A stretch of DNA of 64,000 bases from a bacterium (lineage in GTDB: Bacteria > Bdellovibrionota_G > JALEGL01), in contig JALEGL010000014.1 in assembly GCA_022763185.1 (NCBI GenBank), positions 1 through 64,000 on the forward strand, read 5' to 3'. The notes beneath the pieces were generated by a model. That model did no database searches and was not told where the DNA came from. It saw only the letters and a program-made list of their open reading frames with translations. The first letter of the stretch is position 1; each line of letters starts with the position of its first letter. Positions 21,230 through 61,254 of the stretch are shown here, in pieces. The position numbers were made by a program, and so were the translations under genes.

Positions 21230-21667
21230 TTTGTGATGTAGTACGATGTAATCAAAGTATGATTAAGTTGTTGTTATTGTTGAATTTAGCAATGATTTTA
21301 ATATCTTAAGAAACGCTAGATTGCTCCCAATCGCCCCGACCATCATAAAAAGCCAGAAAAAATAAAGTTATTAAAACTAAGTACATCGTTGGTTTAAAGC
21401 TATACTAATGATGAGTAAGCCGAAGGCGCAGCGAAGAGTTTAGTATAACTTATGGCAACACCGAAGGTGTTGGCCAAATCTAATCACCCCGACCATCTTT
21501 TTTCTTATTAGTAAAGTGTTAGTTTTTTATCCTTTTTTTAAAAGATCATTTTGTATATTGGATTTGAACTAAGCGCCAAAGGCGATGGTTCGCTTTAATT
21601 AATATTGGTTGAAATGCTATGTATTATTTGATAGATGCGCCAGCATTCATATGTAGAGGGGATTTTT
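21230..21667. repeat. Gene-free spacer with dispersed repeats and small hairpins
   Basis: No gene is evident here. About 21350-21415 (centred on CATCGTTGGTTTAAAGCTA) is a near-copy of 26383-26456. TTGAACTAAGCGCCAAAGGCG (from 21564, with about 25 further matching bases) is a near-copy of a block starting at 26310. CCCCGACCATC occurs twice (about 21335 and 21485). GCAACACC (21455-21462) pairs with GGTGTTG (21466-21472) around GAA. The two repeat types occur in opposite order on the far side of the helicase gene. Confidence 0.5.
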
Positions 21668-24600
21668 ATGAAGAGTTATTTGTACAGCGTTTGCTTGCGC
21701 TACTTGGTTGTTTGTTTTTTTACCTTGCAAAACTGTCTACAGTTCTTGCCAATTGTACATGCAAAAACAAATAGAGATACCAATCACTTTGAAAAAATTA
21801 CAGAGCGTCAAGTTCAAGAAATACTATCGTACACAAGAGAAAAAATTTCTGTAAGATCTCAGGTTAATGAAAGCGGTGAGTTATTTGCAGAATATCGAGC
21901 AAGCGGCATAGATAAGAAGCTTTCTTCATCTGAGCAGTTTTTGGTTGGTTTTTATGGACTGTCTTTACTGAGTGAAAACATACAAAGCACTATAGATAAT
22001 AGTGAGTTTGAGCTAGAGGAAGATTTTAGTAATGTCACAATTAGATTTGTAAGACAAGATGCACGTCTTTGTGGAAAACTAGAAAACAATGAATGTATTA
22101 TTGAATTGGGTGGAAAAAACGGCATTTTTTTTCAACAGCCTAATCGAACAAAGTTTGGGTTGTTTAACTTATTACTTATTGAAAATGCTTATGCACAAAA
22201 TAGCTCTAGTGATGAAGATACATTTACCAAAGGTTTTTTAGATGGCTTAGCTATTGATTGGGCAGATGATGCTTTAAATGCGGGTATCAGTGCTGCTGTG
22301 GGTACTGTTATTGGGTTATTCGGTGGTCTTGGTCCACTTGGTTGGGCAGCTTTAGGTGCCGTAGCTTTGTATACTGTAGGTTCTGACATGTTAACTATGG
22401 GAGAGCATTTATATTATGGTGAGTATTATAAAGCCGGAGAAGTATTAGGTGACCTTCTTAAAGACCTTGTTATATCTGTTGCCAGTGGTTTTGCTGGAGG
22501 AAAAGCAGGTAAGGCGCTAAAAGATCTATTGATAAAAGCTGCTGAAAAAAGTGATAAGTTTGCAATTGTTGCAAGAGCTGTTTTAGAAATCGTTGAAAGA
22601 GTAACAGCTTCTATTATTCGACCTGCACCGGAAAATAATACTTCTAGTAGAAATTCAGATAAGGGTGGTAATGATTCTGGTCCTGGCGGAAATGGTACTT
22701 CGCCGAGTAATAACTCACCTACCGCCAATAATTTACCCTCTAGCTCTTCGCCAGGTAATATAGGTAGACCGCAAACTAACAGCAGTTCACCTCAAAATCA
22801 GTATAGAAATGATTCCAATGTTTTGGAAAAACCAGCTGTTGAAGTTATGCAGCCAAAACCTGCTCCGAATCCTACAGCAAGAAATCCAGTTGCTGATGCA
22901 ATGGGAGTAACTATTATCCCGAATCAACCCAGTGTTACAGCTCCAGCATTTTCTGGTGCAGCGAGACCTTGGATACCACCTACAATTGATGATGATCAAA
23001 ATGATATTGAAACAGCACCAGTCTTTGTAAATAACTCACCTCAGCAAAGCTTCTTTAATTTAAGTTTTAATCCATTGAATATTAATATTTCTGAAAAAAC
23101 AATGATGAGTAAACCTACTTATCCTACACTTCTCTATGCCAAGGATTATGGAGAAGACTATGTGATTCATCTTCCAAAAGGAGGAGCTTTAGAAGAGTGG
23201 GCAGCGTATCAAAAGTTTCAGCTGCAAGGTAAGCTTGGGATTAACGGCGTAGCTATTCCACGAGTAGAATTGTGGCAAAAGACATATTCTGGTGCAAGTC
23301 CTGATACACCGTATACCGATAGCGATCCTCCAAGGACGTATATTTTTGCGATTCAGCATTTGCCAGGAAGTAAGCCAGAAGATGTAGGTTTTATTGAAGA
23401 GTCTTTTTCAAACAATATTCCGAGTATGACGATTCAAACAGTGCAGGCGATGGATCGCATAAATGGCAGGCAAGTCCGAAGAAATTGGTTTAAAGATTTA
23501 AGAATTGATGGAAGCACCTATTATGCGATTAATAATGCTGATTTCTCGCCCGCGGTATCAAAAAGAGAAATGATACCTTTTGAGTTAGACTATAATCAAG
23601 CATTGGTAACGCTTGAAGAAAACCAATGGGATCCATCAATATTTTTAACCAACCATATACCAAGCATGAACTATGTTTTTGGTGTTCAGTCTGAGTCACA
23701 ATGGAGCGCCTTAGAGCATGAGATGGATCCACTCAATGGAACATTTGAAGATGATTTTACAAAACTGCGTAAGGCTTTGTCCGGTGACATAGCATATGCA
23801 ATGTGGCTTCGTCAGCAAGCAGAGCTTTGTCGTTTAGGAGAGAGTTCCTTTAGTGATGAACTGTGCGCAATACTTATACTAGTATCAAAGTTTAACTCGG
23901 CAGAGCAGTATGAAGATATTCCGTTACCTAAGCATTTAGAAGAATCTATCAATGAACAGATAAGAGTAATAACCGATAAGCAATTTAAAAAGAGTATTAA
24001 AGAGTTACTGATGCTGATGTACTTGGTTAGTGGAGGTAAAGAAGATTTGGTTGCTTTTGTTGAAGGAGACCCTGTTTTATCAGAAGTCGATGGCATTTAC
24101 CTTATCATCGATCAAATAGTTGAAGAGTTAGAGGCACTAACTAAAGATTTTACTCAAATATTAAATAATTTGCGTTCATATACCGGCCATAAAGAGGGAG
24201 ATAAACCTTCGTTGTATGAAGAGCAGCTTCCCATTTTTAGAGCTATATCGATGTATCTTTATGGAGGTGGTAAGTCTGGGTATATCAAAGCGCCAACAGG
24301 CATTGGGAAAACCGTTATTTTTTCAAAAATAGTTGAAGGGTTAGCTAAAGGTCTTGAAGAAAAAGTGATGATCGTTGTTCCTAATCAAAATTTGGTGAAA
24401 CAAACGGCAGAAAAAATTATTAAGTTTACTGAGTTTACTGAAGATCAAATTGGCTTTTATTATACTCAAAAAAAGATACTTGGACGGCAGATTACTATTA
24501 CAACATATCATTCACTTGTATCTGCAACGAATTCTGGGGTTTTTAATCCTGATGAGTATCCTATTATGATTCTTGATGAAGCTCATCGAGGAACAAGTAA

Positions 24601-26101
24601 AAAAAGAGCTAAGGTTATTGATAGCTATAAAGGAATAAAAATTGGATTCACAGCAACACCACATTTTTCAAAAGAAAAAACAGTGAAAAACGTATTGCCA
24701 GATGAAATTTATCATATGAGCGTATTGGAAGCTGTAGAGCAACTGGGTCTTTTGTCTAGTTTTAAAGTGGTGGTTCAATATTTTTCAGACGTTGACTTAG
24801 CTGAAGCAGACACTGGAACTGGAGACTATGAAGAAGCTGCTTTAGGAAAAATACTTCAAAGACATGGTGTGTCATTAGCGGCGCTTAATGCTTACAATAA
24901 TTACATCGAACAAGGTGACGATAGAGCAATTATATACTGCAGCGGTATTGATCATTCCGAGAATGTTGCTCAGGTGTTTAGAGATGCGGGAATTGAGGCT
25001 CAAGCGGTTCATAGCAAATTAAGTAGAGCTAGAAGAGATGAAATTTTAAATGATTTTCACGAAGGTAAAATCAAAGTTTTAACCAACCCTGATGTTTTGG
25101 TTGAAGGTTTTGATGAAGAAAAGATAAAGCTTATCATCAATTTAAGAGCAACTTTATCAAGAGTAGTGGCTGAGCAAAGAGGTGGAAGAGGTATTAGGAA
25201 AGATCCAGATAATCCTAATAAAATAGCAATCATTATTGAGTTTGTTTATTACAATTCCAAAAGAGCTAGAAATGGCAAACCTTTACAAATTTTATACCCC
25301 GAAGTTGTGGGTATTTCAGAAGCATTTTCTAGCGTTCTAGATGAAGAAACCATTGATAGACTTAAGCGAAGAATTAATCAAAAAAGTGAAAGATTAAGGC
25401 AAAGTAATCAAAACAGTGACGAACCTCAATCTGAAGTCGTTATTATTGATGATGCTAGAGAAATTACAGTTCTTTCAAAAAGAATCGCTGCAGAAAGAAC
25501 AGACTATCCTGAAGAGTTTGCCTTTGAAATAATTCGCGATGATATCGATGATTGGAACAGATACAGCCAAATGGGTATGCTTCGTCAGTACGTTACTGCC
25601 TATGCGAGTGAAGACGTTTGGGAAGAGGCAGTAAATGCTACTGGAGTAGTTATTATAAATGAAAGTACTTACTATGAAGTCTATAGAAACTTTGGAAAAT
25701 ATGTAGGATGGCACACGCCAGCTAAAATAAAGAAAAATCAAAAGTTTCTTGATTTAGCAAATTCAAACAAAGAGCGTTGGGAGATTTATACAAATTATAA
25801 TCAGGATATGGAGTTTCAAAATGATGATAATACTCCTATGCAGGAGCCAGTTGTTGAACCTGAACCTGAACCTGAACCTGAACCTGAACCTGAACCTCAA
25901 CCAACCGTTGAAGAGGATCAAGGTGGTGATGAAACTACGGAGAATCAAGAAAACTTTGGTGATTCACAACAAAATGATGGTTCAGGATCTAATCAAGATA
26001 CAGGCGGTCAAAATAAAAATGATAACGAAAGAGATGAACCAAGCTCGAATGAAACAGGGAACTGGATTCAGAGGTGGTTTAGAAGAATATTTGGTGGATA
26101 G
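21668..26101 (+). CDS. Giant exported SF2 helicase chimera (hypothetical)
   Basis: ATG 21668 is preferred because AGAGGGG precedes it; it gives 1477 residues. The start KSYLYSVCLRYLVVCFFTLQ..VHAK looks like a signal peptide. A unique ~170-residue region, a glycine/alanine-rich hydrophobic segment (about 190-280), a Ser/Asn/Pro-rich linker (about 315-440) and an unknown domain follow. A full SF2 helicase then appears, with Walker A APTGIGKT (875-882), DEAH (970-973), GFTATP, and a C-terminal RecA domain with EGFDEEKIKLIINLRAT and QRGGRGIRKD. The tail has an (EP)n tract and ends in NWIQRWFRRIFGG. A helicase behind a signal peptide is odd; the first part resembles polymorphic-toxin-like architecture. 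Motifs look intact, function unknown. Confidence 0.6.
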   Translation: MKSYLYSVCLRYLVVCFFTLQNCLQFLPIVHAKTNRDTNHFEKITERQVQEILSYTREKISVRSQVNESGELFAEYRASGIDKKLSSSEQFLVGFYGLSLLSENIQSTIDNSEFELEEDFSNVTIRFVRQDARLCGKLENNECIIELGGKNGIFFQQPNRTKFGLFNLLLIENAYAQNSSSDEDTFTKGFLDGLAIDWADDALNAGISAAVGTVIGLFGGLGPLGWAALGAVALYTVGSDMLTMGEHLYYGEYYKAGEVLGDLLKDLVISVASGFAGGKAGKALKDLLIKAAEKSDKFAIVARAVLEIVERVTASIIRPAPENNTSSRNSDKGGNDSGPGGNGTSPSNNSPTANNLPSSSSPGNIGRPQTNSSSPQNQYRNDSNVLEKPAVEVMQPKPAPNPTARNPVADAMGVTIIPNQPSVTAPAFSGAARPWIPPTIDDDQNDIETAPVFVNNSPQQSFFNLSFNPLNINISEKTMMSKPTYPTLLYAKDYGEDYVIHLPKGGALEEWAAYQKFQLQGKLGINGVAIPRVELWQKTYSGASPDTPYTDSDPPRTYIFAIQHLPGSKPEDVGFIEESFSNNIPSMTIQTVQAMDRINGRQVRRNWFKDLRIDGSTYYAINNADFSPAVSKREMIPFELDYNQALVTLEENQWDPSIFLTNHIPSMNYVFGVQSESQWSALEHEMDPLNGTFEDDFTKLRKALSGDIAYAMWLRQQAELCRLGESSFSDELCAILILVSKFNSAEQYEDIPLPKHLEESINEQIRVITDKQFKKSIKELLMLMYLVSGGKEDLVAFVEGDPVLSEVDGIYLIIDQIVEELEALTKDFTQILNNLRSYTGHKEGDKPSLYEEQLPIFRAISMYLYGGGKSGYIKAPTGIGKTVIFSKIVEGLAKGLEEKVMIVVPNQNLVKQTAEKIIKFTEFTEDQIGFYYTQKKILGRQITITTYHSLVSATNSGVFNPDEYPIMILDEAHRGTSKKRAKVIDSYKGIKIGFTATPHFSKEKTVKNVLPDEIYHMSVLEAVEQLGLLSSFKVVVQYFSDVDLAEADTGTGDYEEAALGKILQRHGVSLAALNAYNNYIEQGDDRAIIYCSGIDHSENVAQVFRDAGIEAQAVHSKLSRARRDEILNDFHEGKIKVLTNPDVLVEGFDEEKIKLIINLRATLSRVVAEQRGGRGIRKDPDNPNKIAIIIEFVYYNSKRARNGKPLQILYPEVVGISEAFSSVLDEETIDRLKRRINQKSERLRQSNQNSDEPQSEVVIIDDAREITVLSKRIAAERTDYPEEFAFEIIRDDIDDWNRYSQMGMLRQYVTAYASEDVWEEAVNATGVVIINESTYYEVYRNFGKYVGWHTPAKIKKNQKFLDLANSNKERWEIYTNYNQDMEFQNDDNTPMQEPVVEPEPEPEPEPEPEPQPTVEEDQGGDETTENQENFGDSQQNDGSGSNQDTGGQNKNDNERDEPSSNETGNWIQRWFRRIFGG
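25856..25897 (+). repeat. In-frame hexanucleotide tandem repeat (GAACCT x7)
   Basis: Seven perfect GAACCT units encode (Glu-Pro)7 near the C-terminus of the helicase protein. Length changes would stay in frame, so this is a possible slippage-variable spacer, not an on/off switch. Confidence 0.9.
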
Positions 26102-56538: not shown

Positions 56539-57474
56539 ATGAACTGTCCAAAATGCAATCACTATAATATTAAACAAGCACTGGAGTGTCAGCAATGTGG
56601 CATTGTTTTTGAGAAGTATATTGACGCACGAGAAAGAAAAAGACTTTATCACGATAAAATTGAGCGTGAGTACCATGAGCTATCTAAAAAGTCTCAACTG
56701 ATTATAGAAGAACGCTGGAAGCTTTTATTCCCAATATTTGCATTTGTTTTTATCCCCGTGGCTAAATTTTTTATTTTCCCTGCAATGGTTTTTGATTCAA
56801 TGCATATGTGGGCGCATGAATTTGGTCATGCTTCTGCTGCTTGGTTTGGAGGTAGAGCGGCAACGCCTTTTATTCTTTGGACCAGTATATCATTAGAGCG
56901 ATCATGGCTGGTTTTTGTGTGTTTTTTGTTTTTAACTTTGTTTATTTTATATAAAACTTATCGTGAAAAAACATACTTTGTTATGGTTTGTTGTTGCCTA
57001 GCAATCTTTTTGCAGCTGTATTTAACATTATGGATATCTGAAGATCAGCTTGACCTTGTGTTTACGCATAGTGGCGTTGGAGGTGAGTTTTACATTAGCA
57101 CTTTTGCAATTATGGCATTTCATTACAGGTTTCCAAAAGGCAGTTACTGGCCCTTTTTGCGTTATTGGTTGCTGTTGGCAGGCGTGTATGTTTTTTTTAA
57201 AAGTTTTTATTTTTGGCAGCAAGTAGATGAGGGTGTGAAAAGTATTCCTTGGGGATCAGCCATACATGGGCACGATGATCAGAACGGCGATATGAATAAA
57301 CTCAGATATGTCTGGGGATGGTCGCCTAAAAGAATTGTTAACAATTATGTAGGAATAAGTTATATGTGTTTAAGCGTTATGACTATTCACTATATTACGG
57401 TTGTTTTAGTTCAAATAACATCCAAAAAATACTTGATTATAGAGCGCTATAATAAAATCTTTAATAAAATATAA
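56539..57474 (+). CDS. Zinc-ribbon plus M50-like membrane metallopeptidase
   Basis: The 311-residue protein starts with a four-Cys zinc ribbon (NCPKCNHYN..LECQQCG; C3, C6, C17, C20), a basic linker and about six membrane helices. At residues 88-99 it has MHMWAHEFGHAS, an HExxH site (H93, E94, H97) within a membrane segment, as in intramembrane M50 peptidases. The third ligand is not certain; ESxxxxLD-like motifs are not clear. A regulated intramembrane protease is possible, but the family call is tentative. Confidence 0.55.
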   Translation: MNCPKCNHYNIKQALECQQCGIVFEKYIDARERKRLYHDKIEREYHELSKKSQLIIEERWKLLFPIFAFVFIPVAKFFIFPAMVFDSMHMWAHEFGHASAAWFGGRAATPFILWTSISLERSWLVFVCFLFLTLFILYKTYREKTYFVMVCCCLAIFLQLYLTLWISEDQLDLVFTHSGVGGEFYISTFAIMAFHYRFPKGSYWPFLRYWLLLAGVYVFFKSFYFWQQVDEGVKSIPWGSAIHGHDDQNGDMNKLRYVWGWSPKRIVNNYVGISYMCLSVMTIHYITVVLVQITSKKYLIIERYNKIFNKI

Positions 57475-57485
57475 GTTTTCAAAAG

Positions 57486-60167
57486 CTAGTTTAAGCTCGG
57501 GACTTTAAAAATGGGGTGATTGATGAAATCTTGTTTGAACTGATCAGGTACGTTGACCAAAATTTCATCACGAATACTCTGGTATTCATCAATCAGTTCT
57601 TTAGTTTCTTTCACGTTGTCTTGGCTTTTTAAATAATTGATTTTGGTGATATAGTACCATTGCTTTAAATAAACGTCTGAAATATTTTTTCTATCAATTT
57701 CTTCTGTTGGTGGAACTACGTCAATACCTTTAGATTTTGCGGAATAATATGCTAAGTGTAAATGAATAACAGAGTTGACTGTAAATATATCTTTTTGTAG
57801 GGTTCTGTAGGCTGTCATATAGCTTTTTTTAATATGATCTTGATCTATTTTTTCAAATTGAGTTTGCATAATGAGTGCTCTTAATTTAAAGTTAAAAACT
57901 GCTCGATTAAGGTTTGCTTTTTTATAATAGTGAGCGCTGTCTAAAAAATATTGAGATGCAGTGGAATAGTCTTTTTTGCAAAAATAAAAAATTCCTAGGA
58001 GAACATTTTCTATACCGAGATTCATACTACTTTTATTAATTTTTTTAAAAAGAGTAAGTTTTTTTAGTTCTTTCTTTGCAAGGTTTATAGCGCCTTGATC
58101 TAAAAGGCAGTCTACATAAAATAAAAAGGCATTGTAACTTTGGCGTAAGTTATTAAGTTTTAAAAAAGAATCGCTCGCATATTTGTAATGATTTAAAGCG
58201 TTTTCAAAATCTCCTAAAATAGAGTATGCTACTCCTTTATAGAGAGTCATCTGATTTTTTGTGTTGATCAAGTAATGTTTATCGCAAAGTTGGATGTTTT
58301 TTGAAAGATAATAAATAGCTTCTAAATTCATTTTAGCAGACTGAAGCCACCTCACAATATTGGTGTTGATTTCTATCTGAGGCTTAATTGCAAACTTATT
58401 GTAATCAAATGTATTGATCAGACGTACTAAGTAAGGACTGCAAGAAGTTTTCCTACTGTAAATATTTGCTAAAAGAACTTTACCCCATATATTTGTTAAA
58501 AGCTCTTTGTCTATATTTCTTCTTAATAAATATCTTAATGTTATAAAGCCTTCATGAATGGTTTCGTTTTGCTTCCCATCATTTAATAAAGACTTTAGTC
58601 GCATGGGCAATAAGTCTGGAAAAACTTTTTGTGTCCATGCATCATCTACTTCAAGGTTTTGAGTTTTATCAATAACTCTTTGATATTGGTTTTGATGATG
58701 TGAAATCTCAGCTTCAAGATAATCAAAAATAGGTTTATCAAAGTTAACTGTTTTTCTCACTTTTGCAATGAAGTTATTGGCATGTTCTAAGGATTCTGTC
58801 GCAATTAAGGCCTTAGTTTTATATATAATATAGGTTTCAAGTTGTTCCAAAGATAGGTTGTGCGTATGGTCAGACAGATGTTTGAAATGTTGTACACTGA
58901 GTTGAAACTGGTTGTTTTGATAGCTTTTTACACCTGCTAGGTAGCTGTACTGGACTTTTAAAGAAGTATTGTCGCCTTTTTGAGCATGGCCGGCAATTTT
59001 ATAGGTTAAATCATCCAACTCCAGTTGATCTTTGTAGATGTCTAAAAATTCAGCAATATGGGTATGAATCTCTTTTTTTTGTTCTTGGCTTAGTTGTTTG
59101 AGTAGGGTTTTGTATAATAAGGCATGGTTGAAGCGATACTTGTACTGCGGGAAGTTGCTGGTCACATCTAAAAAATGTTCACTGAATAAAGTATTGAGGC
59201 TGTTGTCAACGTCTTGCTTAAAGAAATGATCAAGATAGGCTTTTAAATGATCCGCGTTGTCCTCATAGCCAAAAATAGAACAATGCAACAAAAGTTGTTG
59301 TGATAATTCTGGTAAGCCATGAAAATGAGCCAAGAGCAATTGAGAAAGATCTTTTGGGATGCTGCCAATATCTTTTTTTAAAATAATGGAACGTTTGTCG
59401 TTGTCAGTAAAATACTGAATGTATTTTTGCTTTAATGCGTGTTCAAGCAACTTTTCTAAATAAAGCGGGTTGCCTTGAGAGCTGTCGTATAAGGTTTTAA
59501 TAACCGATGATGCAATATAGTCTGCTTTTAGATGTAAAGTGCAAAACTGATAGACTTCTTCTTGAGTAAATGCAGGGAGTTTTTGTTCATTGTAGTTTAG
59601 ATCTTTTTGCCAGGGAAGTGTGTGCTGTGCAACTTGAGTGTACAATAATAGAGTACGGTTGTTTTCAAAGTTTTCAAAAACAGTGCCTAAATATTCAATC
59701 GTGGTGTTGGGAGCAAAGTTTAGATCTTCGATGATCAATATTAAATGATCATGATTGAAGCGTTTTATGATTTGTTTAAAAGTATAAATCACCGCTTGAT
59801 CAAATTCATTGCCTTCATAAGGCAGCTTACTGTGTATTTTAGGCTTATTTAGAGCAAGCAGAATATTGTGTTCAGTCGTGTTAAGTTCAATATTCTCTGA
59901 TTTACAAAGCTCTAAAAGTTGAGGGGCCCAATCCCTAAAGCATTGTAAAGCATCGGATGTATCGGGTGAGAGCTGAGACTTTATGTGCAAATGCTGACTG
60001 TGCAGTGCCTGCTCATAGCGCTTGAGCAGTGTGCTGCAACCAATGCCAACCGGTCCTTCAATGCTTAAAATTTGTCCTTGATCTTCTTTTATTTGTTCAA
60101 GTGTAAGTTTAAAATCATGAATGAAGTCTTGTCGGCCAATGAATACGTCTTTTTGTAATTGAGTCAT
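57486..60167 (-). CDS. AAA-TPR regulator-like protein with a defective P-loop
   Basis: From the in-frame ATG at complement 60167 it is 893 residues; a TTG at 60218 would add 17. It opens FIGRQDFIHDF, the start of STAND/AAA_16 modules, with Walker A EGPVGIGCSTLL, where the invariant Lys is Cys (C44), and Walker B LILIIEDLNF. A winged-helix-like region and a long helical repeat C-terminus (TPR-like, about 400-893) follow. There is no clear DNA-binding LuxR or cyclase domain. It is divergent from the GIGDELP lipoprotein and could control it. The changed P-loop suggests ATP is bound weakly or not hydrolysed. Confidence 0.55.
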   Translation of the reverse strand: MTQLQKDVFIGRQDFIHDFKLTLEQIKEDQGQILSIEGPVGIGCSTLLKRYEQALHSQHLHIKSQLSPDTSDALQCFRDWAPQLLELCKSENIELNTTEHNILLALNKPKIHSKLPYEGNEFDQAVIYTFKQIIKRFNHDHLILIIEDLNFAPNTTIEYLGTVFENFENNRTLLLYTQVAQHTLPWQKDLNYNEQKLPAFTQEEVYQFCTLHLKADYIASSVIKTLYDSSQGNPLYLEKLLEHALKQKYIQYFTDNDKRSIILKKDIGSIPKDLSQLLLAHFHGLPELSQQLLLHCSIFGYEDNADHLKAYLDHFFKQDVDNSLNTLFSEHFLDVTSNFPQYKYRFNHALLYKTLLKQLSQEQKKEIHTHIAEFLDIYKDQLELDDLTYKIAGHAQKGDNTSLKVQYSYLAGVKSYQNNQFQLSVQHFKHLSDHTHNLSLEQLETYIIYKTKALIATESLEHANNFIAKVRKTVNFDKPIFDYLEAEISHHQNQYQRVIDKTQNLEVDDAWTQKVFPDLLPMRLKSLLNDGKQNETIHEGFITLRYLLRRNIDKELLTNIWGKVLLANIYSRKTSCSPYLVRLINTFDYNKFAIKPQIEINTNIVRWLQSAKMNLEAIYYLSKNIQLCDKHYLINTKNQMTLYKGVAYSILGDFENALNHYKYASDSFLKLNNLRQSYNAFLFYVDCLLDQGAINLAKKELKKLTLFKKINKSSMNLGIENVLLGIFYFCKKDYSTASQYFLDSAHYYKKANLNRAVFNFKLRALIMQTQFEKIDQDHIKKSYMTAYRTLQKDIFTVNSVIHLHLAYYSAKSKGIDVVPPTEEIDRKNISDVYLKQWYYITKINYLKSQDNVKETKELIDEYQSIRDEILVNVPDQFKQDFINHPIFKVPSLN

Positions 60168-60330: not shown

Positions 60331-60346
60331 TGGCATAGCACATGCA
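60331..60346 (+). promoter_or_regulatory. Sigma-54 (-24/-12) type promoter for the GIGDELP lipoprotein
   Basis: TGGCATAGCACATGCA has the GG and GC dinucleotides 12 bp apart, matching TGGCACG-N4-TTGCA at key positions. Predicted start is near 60358, leaving a short leader containing GAGAGGA before ATG 60374. No TGTACA site was seen upstream. Confidence 0.5.
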
Positions 60347-60373
60347 ATAGTATATGGGTGAGAGGACATAACC

Positions 60374-61033
60374 ATGAAAAAACGCCCAGTACAATATCTT
60401 ACTTTAACCCTAATCACCCTACTTTTAACAGCTTGTGGAGCACACAGTACCTTAGACAGTAATAATGAAAGTGTAAACTTAGGTTTAAGTGCTTTTGAAG
60501 CATATAGAGCTGCCGATGAGAGTTTAAAATGTAACGACTTAGCCAATAATTACAGCAATGTAGGTGTTGGTTGGTATGCTGCAAGAAGAGGTATAGGAGA
60601 TGAGTTGCCGCGCTTGAGGGGAATCGGAGATGAGTTACCGTTTAGATTTGCCGCCAGTAGAGGAATAGGCGATGAATTGCCATCTTATAAGAGGAGAGGT
60701 ATTGGTGATGAATTGCCATCTTTGAAGGGAATTGGCGATGAATTGCCATCTAGGTTTATGTACGACAGTTCAGTTATGATGGTTGAAGAGTCTGGTGACG
60801 TGAAGTATCAAGAAGAAATGACTTGCGCCAATATTGTTATTGATATGCAGGTTGAGGTTGCTTCAGACGCGGATTCAGTATTGGTCATTATTGATGGTAA
60901 AACAGTTTCAGTTAATGTTGAACAAGGAGTAGCAAAAGTTAATGTTGCTCTAGAAGACTTAAAAACAACGGAAATTCATGTTCAAGACACAATCTCGGGT
61001 GATGTTCTAGGCGTTGTTTTTGAAGGTCAATAA
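60374..61033 (+). CDS. Lipoprotein with five identical GIGDELP repeats
   Basis: The 219-residue protein has a signal and lipobox LLTAC (Cys21), then a short helical region. Five exact GIGDELP heptads follow (residues 73-79, 83-89, 97-103, 109-115, 119-125), each directly preceded by Arg or Lys. The last ~90 residues form a beta-rich domain (VLVIIDGKTVSVNVEQGVAKVNVALEDLK). The repeat DNA differs only at synonymous positions. The basic residues between repeats would allow trypsin-like release of repeated peptides; a fixed binding repeat is the alternative. The ribosome site GAGAGGA is good. I do not recognise the family. Confidence 0.7.
   Translation: MKKRPVQYLTLTLITLLLTACGAHSTLDSNNESVNLGLSAFEAYRAADESLKCNDLANNYSNVGVGWYAARRGIGDELPRLRGIGDELPFRFAASRGIGDELPSYKRRGIGDELPSLKGIGDELPSRFMYDSSVMMVEESGDVKYQEEMTCANIVIDMQVEVASDADSVLVIIDGKTVSVNVEQGVAKVNVALEDLKTTEIHVQDTISGDVLGVVFEGQ
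60590..60748 (+). repeat. Coding repeat region: five GIGDELP heptads
   Basis: Copies start at bases 60590, 60620, 60662, 60698 and 60728. Gly1 uses GGT or GGA, Ile2 ATA, ATC or ATT, Gly3 GGA, GGC or GGT, Glu GAG or GAA, Leu TTG or TTA, and Pro CCG or CCA, yet the peptide never changes. Spacing is irregular (30, 42, 36 and 30 bp). Confidence 0.95.
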
Positions 61034-61069: not shown

Positions 61070-61104
61070 AAAGCTCCTAAACAATTCGTTTAGGAGCTTT
61101 TTTT
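61070..61104 (+). terminator. Rho-independent terminator
   Basis: AAAGCTCCTAAAC (61070-61082) pairs with GTTTAGGAGCTTT (61088-61100), followed by a T-run to 61104. It ends the GIGDELP lipoprotein transcript. Confidence 0.9.
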
Positions 61105-61137
61105 ATAGATAAAAAAATAGCCTCATACTTTATAAGT

Positions 61138-61237: not shown

Positions 61238-61254
61238 TTGGCACAAGGTTTGCT
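61238..61254 (+). promoter_or_regulatory. Sigma-54 (-24/-12) type promoter for the oxoamine synthase operon
   Basis: TTGGCACAAGGTTTGCT has GG and GC exactly 12 bp apart and the consensus TTGGCAC and TTGC elements; it is the best sigma-54 match in the window. Transcription would start about 61265, before ATG 61319. Confidence 0.7.

Follow-up and report, generated by a model that had tools for sequence, protein, structure and literature searches.

Organization of the locus

The window, by which we mean the whole 64,000-nt stretch of bacterial DNA that was analysed, carries a gene for a small lipoprotein with five copies of the heptapeptide GIGDELP, encoded divergently from a gene for an AAA-TPR protein. 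The features of the locus are as follows.

57486–60164, − strand: AAA_16-TPR protein, 892 aa, divergent from the lipoprotein (Pfam AAA_16, E 6e-8)
60331–60346, + strand: −24/−12 (sigma-54-type) promoter-like site TGGCATAGCACATGCA, GG-N10-GC (pattern score)
60360–60365, + strand: ribosome-binding site GAGAGG, start codon 8 nt on (sequence)
60374–61033, + strand: lipoprotein gene, 219 aa (ORF)
60374–60433, + strand: type II signal peptide, lipobox LLTA/C, Gly at +2 (sequence)
60434–60586, + strand: N-terminal linker of the mature lipoprotein, last residues ...NVGVGWYAAR before the array (low confidence in the AlphaFold model)
60590–60610, + strand: GIGDELP copy 1 (sequence)
60620–60640, + strand: GIGDELP copy 2 (sequence)
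60662–60682, + strand: GIGDELP copy 3 (sequence)
60698–60718, + strand: GIGDELP copy 4 (sequence)
60728–60748, + strand: GIGDELP copy 5 (sequence)
60830–61030, + strand: small C-terminal beta domain, about residues 153–219 (AlphaFold, single sequence)
61070–61107, + strand: intrinsic terminator, 13-bp stem (61070–61100) and T run, 3′ of the lipoprotein gene (sequence)

The lipobox cysteine, read from the sequence as MKKRPVQYLTLTLITLLLTA/CG, marks a type II signal peptide, and this region gives weak matches to the lipoprotein models LytA and LptM. Lipoproteins with Gly at +2 are sorted to the outer membrane by the general +2 rule, and this protein, whose +2 residue is compatible with such sorting, probably receives a lipid and ends up there. 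The N-terminal linker is acidic. In a single-sequence AlphaFold model the array has no predicted structure (pLDDT about 30), which is weak evidence for disorder, while the C-terminal domain is modelled with five to six strands at a pLDDT of about 70–80; fold searches with this beta domain gave no significant PDB match. The lipoprotein belongs to no family in Pfam, NCBIfam, PHROGs or PADLOC, and there was no Rfam match. Because an intrinsic terminator stands at its end, the gene is its own transcription unit.

The divergent AAA-TPR protein, noted in the original prediction and borne out by the Pfam match and by conserved gene order, has relatives in three other genomes of the order (G001, G002 and G003). 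Its Walker A motif is degenerate (GPVGIGCST, with Cys in place of Lys) where its relatives keep GxGK[ST] (G002 and G003 compared), and it is therefore unlikely to be an ordinary ATPase. Pfam predicts no DNA-binding domain in it. In G003 the gene is present as a tandem pair whose products are longer at the N-terminus; the N-terminal extension of the G003 and G001 relatives gives no Pfam match and, by its sequence, may be a degenerate cyclase-like domain. The tie between the AAA-TPR protein and the lipoprotein is one of gene order only.

Several neighbouring features were recorded. The gene at 56539–57474, between tamA and the AAA-TPR gene, encodes a 311-aa membrane protein whose N-terminus has a zinc-ribbon-like CxxC motif and which matches M50-type peptidases weakly (HEFGH); it is not found at that place in G002 or G003. 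On the other side, the best −24/−12-like site of the window (TGGCACAAGGTTTGCT, 61239–61254) precedes a BioF/serine-palmitoyltransferase-like gene, the first of a block of some 15 kb that looks biosynthetic and runs from 61319 to about 77300 (contig coordinates, L195). The block encodes ATP-grasp enzymes (one with LAL_C2), MFS transporters, a peptide-type binding protein, a histidine kinase, an alanine-racemase-like protein and an aminotransferase. The repeat lipoprotein lies on one side of it and groES on the other; G003 lacks the block at this place.

Five identical heptapeptides with different codons

The original prediction described five identical GIGDELP heptads, each preceded by Arg or Lys, with codons varying at six of the seven positions, and all of this was confirmed: the preceding residues are R, R, R, R and K for copies 1–5, and only the Asp codon, GAT, is constant. 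Among the copies there are at least 8 synonymous and 0 non-synonymous differences. With ~28% of changes here expected to be synonymous, such a pattern would arise under neutrality with a probability of ~4e-5, a value that is biased and inflated since the copies were chosen for their identity, although the direction of the argument is sound. The claim that the peptide is maintained, by selection or otherwise, through synonymous change is thus supported. As read from the codons, the silent divergence among the copies shows that the array is not recent.

The copies are spaced by 10, 14, 12 and 10 residues, and the natural unit is therefore a decapeptide, [RK]GIGDELPxx, with insertions of 2–4 residues. 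The spacers between heptads, 3–7 residues long, are irregular, and the linkers are basic and variable. A degenerate codon pattern for GIGDELP matched five times in the 2.25-Mb genome, always in this gene, and the reversed-pattern control gave 0 matches. No further GIGDELP is encoded in this genome or in the four other genomes of the small phylum that were compared. Within the window, the lipoprotein frame is the only one with a 6-mer peptide occurring three or more times, simple EP and LN runs aside. An EP-dipeptide run (TGAACC x8 at 25855) lies near the C-terminus of a 1488-aa protein (21635–26101) with a signal-peptide-like N-terminus and a helicase-like region (DEAH box).

A sigma-54-type site shared by three genes

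The site at 60331 ranked 5th of the 127,968 positions in the window, with scoring weights that are our own approximation to the published −24/−12 consensus. Two related genomes strengthen the proposal of a sigma-54-type promoter. In G003 the lipoprotein gene (described below) is immediately preceded by TGGCATGCGATTCGCA, which outscores every other site on its 11-kb contig, and a −24/−12-like site, TGGCATGGTGTTCGCA, precedes the divergent gene of G002, so that a near-identical element stands before all three genes. Some 0.5% of 150-nt segments score as high as the window site, and two independent chance repeats, in G003 and G002, would therefore have a probability of the order of 1e-5. The window's genome encodes RpoN (PF04552, E 7e-63). 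The G001 AAA-TPR genes have no good −24/−12 site. The start codon follows the GC by 28 nt in the window but by 15–16 nt in the two relatives, G003 and G002, where next to no leader is left. This could mean that the element is a conserved signal of another kind, or that the G003 and G002 start codons are misassigned. If transcription does start from a sigma-54-type promoter, expression would depend on an enhancer-binding activator.

A different repeat in the same slot

In the window's genome the gene order is tamB, tamA, the 311-residue ORF, AAA-TPR, the divergent lipoprotein, about 16–17 kb, then groES-groEL. At the G003 locus (L027) it is the end of tamA, folE, two AAA-TPR genes, a divergent 314-residue lipoprotein, groES and groEL. 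Both the tamA side and the groES side agree, and the two lipoprotein genes occupy the same slot in the same orientation. Such a positional counterpart with repeats was found in one of three same-order genomes. G002 likewise has its AAA-TPR gene next to tamA, but only the first 38 codons of the divergent exported gene lie on the contig; they encode a signal peptide and no clear lipobox. The missing half of this gene was not found via contig overlap, and one guess is that a repeat array may have broken the assembly there. G001 and G004 have no lipoprotein beside groES or AAA-TPR. The array is thus seen in two genomes only, with the third incomplete.

The G003 lipoprotein (lipobox VIIG/CG) has 19 consecutive ten-residue units with the consensus A-H-Q-G-D-G-M-F-x-L and no insertions or deletions. 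The core HQGDGMF is perfect in 11 of the 19, and 6–8 units (about a third) are degenerate, yet retain Ala as the first and Leu or Phe as the tenth residue. Unlike the window copies, these units are not preceded by a basic residue. Change among the copies is again synonymous only (4:0, against 8:0 in the window), and the silent sites form linked classes, GGC-GAT-GGC and GGT-GAT-GGG.

The two lipoproteins are alike in slot, orientation, anchor, array position and a unit length of 10, and differ in the motif itself. NxGVG precedes the array in both, and this junction likeness has p 0.02; the decapeptide consensus (p 0.19) and the C-terminal domain (p 0.2) show no significant similarity, and searches with either lipoprotein do not retrieve the other. 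We infer homology from gene order and architecture, not from sequence. The original prediction was open to refutation by orthologues without the repeats or with freely diverging ones, and it called for a search for the heptad in other genomes: the sole counterpart does have repeats, of another sequence (AHQGDGMFxL), and GIGDELP itself is absent from the four other genomes of the phylum.

These results bear on what kind of repeat this is. The uniformity within each genome and the change of motif between them suggest a uniform array that turns over fast, not a signalling peptide of fixed sequence. That the process is near-neutral slippage in a low-constraint linker, with identity reflecting homogenisation and not function, appears improbable. 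The wholly different repeats of the two families would fit it, as would the linked silent-site classes of G003, a trace of larger-block duplication; yet the window copies have gathered 8 or more silent differences and not one replacement, which is not expected of unselected repeats, and the spacers vary. A folded repeat, a solenoid or a stacked beta structure built from the ten-residue units, with conserved residues that hold the fold and are not binding motifs, is unlikely, if somewhat easier to entertain. The 19 indel-free units of G003, whose degenerate members keep Ala 1 and Leu/Phe 10, could just as well be a folded solenoid, against which stand the 4- and 2-residue insertions and basic variable linkers of the window array and the lack of structure in the model there.

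The original prediction had favoured a multicopy pheromone-like precursor, from which a protease cutting at Arg/Lys would free several identical signal peptides. Some features do point that way: the five identical heptads after basic residues, the rapid divergence of peptide signals between species, and the divergently encoded TPR protein, TPR proteins being peptide receptors in Gram-positive bacteria (RRNPP family). The reading is not supported by the counterpart, where the units have no basic residue before them and about a third are degenerate, nor by the irregular spacers of the window array. A precursor would have no need for a conserved lipid anchor and C-terminal domain; the window and G003 loci have no protease, peptide exporter or modifying enzyme in common; and the window AAA-TPR protein combines a degenerate Walker A with the lack of a predicted DNA-binding domain. 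We regard a peptide precursor as very unlikely.

Post-translational modification of Asp/Glu or other residues in each unit, as in a RiPP-like multi-core peptide, would make sense of several identical cores and of the ATP-grasp and other biosynthetic genes just downstream. At the G003 locus, however, groES comes directly next and the block is absent; in the window the block is set apart by the terminator and has its own stronger −24/−12 site at 61239, and its LAL_C2 ATP-grasp is similar to ligases that act on free amino acids. The chance that the array is such a substrate is therefore slight.

Searches for further relatives

The window lipoprotein, used as the query in protein searches, had no relative in genome contigs, phages, plasmids, viral contigs or 58 whole genomes, and its repeat region alone gave just weak, non-repeat matches in 385 genomes. 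The G003 lipoprotein had no repeat relative in 288 genomes or viral contigs; WD40 and antisense low-complexity matches to it were rejected on reading. Pfam Inh (E 3e-6) and PHROG matches to the G003 array were taken as composition effects, as no stretch passes alone. A generic two-unit DNA pattern gave chance matches only, on inspection, in viral contigs and, among the matches listed, in genome contigs, where more members may exist. A four-unit GD period-10 pattern retrieved G003 and unrelated low-complexity repeats from 385 genomes. The literature searched for the heptad and for lipoproteins with repeats offered nothing relevant.

Proposed working of the lipoprotein

The reading we prefer, with a probability of roughly 45%, is of an exported, probably outer-membrane lipoprotein in which a disordered linker, made up of repeated short motifs that serve for binding or as a spacer, bears a C-terminal beta domain; the motif would have been swapped between families. 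The array is predicted to be unstructured and the C-terminus to be a beta domain, and a role in place, as binding motifs or spacer, is therefore favoured. From the membrane outwards there would be a lipid anchor, a flexible linker, short tandem units with a Gly-Asp core (RGIGDELPxx x5 in the window) and the small beta domain. The units would act where they stand: one short binding motif might be presented several times over, or the array might be a spacer that holds the beta domain clear of the membrane. Within a genome they may be kept alike by duplication or conversion together with purifying selection on the motif, while between families the motif itself would be replaced wholesale.

A more elaborate proposal, which we consider a long shot, is a lineage-specific, sigma-54-controlled two-gene module in which the degenerate TPR-ATPase is divergent from the lipoprotein and the repeat is a recognition tag (e.g. 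for kin or a partner), uniform within a genome and replaced wholesale between lineages. The array would then be a species-specific multivalent ligand read by a co-diverging partner.

If the window and G003 lipoproteins are true orthologues, the motif is constrained within a genome and fully replaced between families, in a fixed slot and behind a common promoter, and the locus, being well defined, lets one ask what the repeats of such lipoproteins bind and how their partner follows the change. Silent differences among identical repeats do not, taken alone, count as evidence for a peptide signal.

Comparison with known systems

The window AAA-TPR protein resembles STAND-like AAA_16-TPR proteins: it matches AAA_16 and, over part of its length, the TOMM kinase/cyclase fusion model TIGR03903, the latter with an E of 6e-15 and far short of that model's cut-off. 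It differs from the regulators of this kind, which include TOMM kinase/cyclase and soluble-cyclase-like proteins, in having no kinase or cyclase domain and in the Lys-to-Cys change of its Walker A.

Multicopy precursors of the fungal alpha-factor type and multi-core RiPPs resemble the window lipoprotein in that one short peptide recurs unchanged several times, between spacers that are variable and basic. Here, in contrast, the peptides are part of a lipoprotein with a retained C-terminal domain, the basic sites are not conserved in the counterpart and there are no common processing genes.

Tandem-repeat surface or outer-membrane lipoproteins, such as the variable lipoproteins of mycoplasma, likewise have a lipid anchor and short in-frame tandem peptide repeats that are alike within one protein but not from one relative to the next. 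The present case differs in that there is no detected sequence relation, far fewer copies and no sign of phase variation; its array is not a recent one, and it lies at a single-copy locus in conserved gene order, behind a sigma-54-type promoter.
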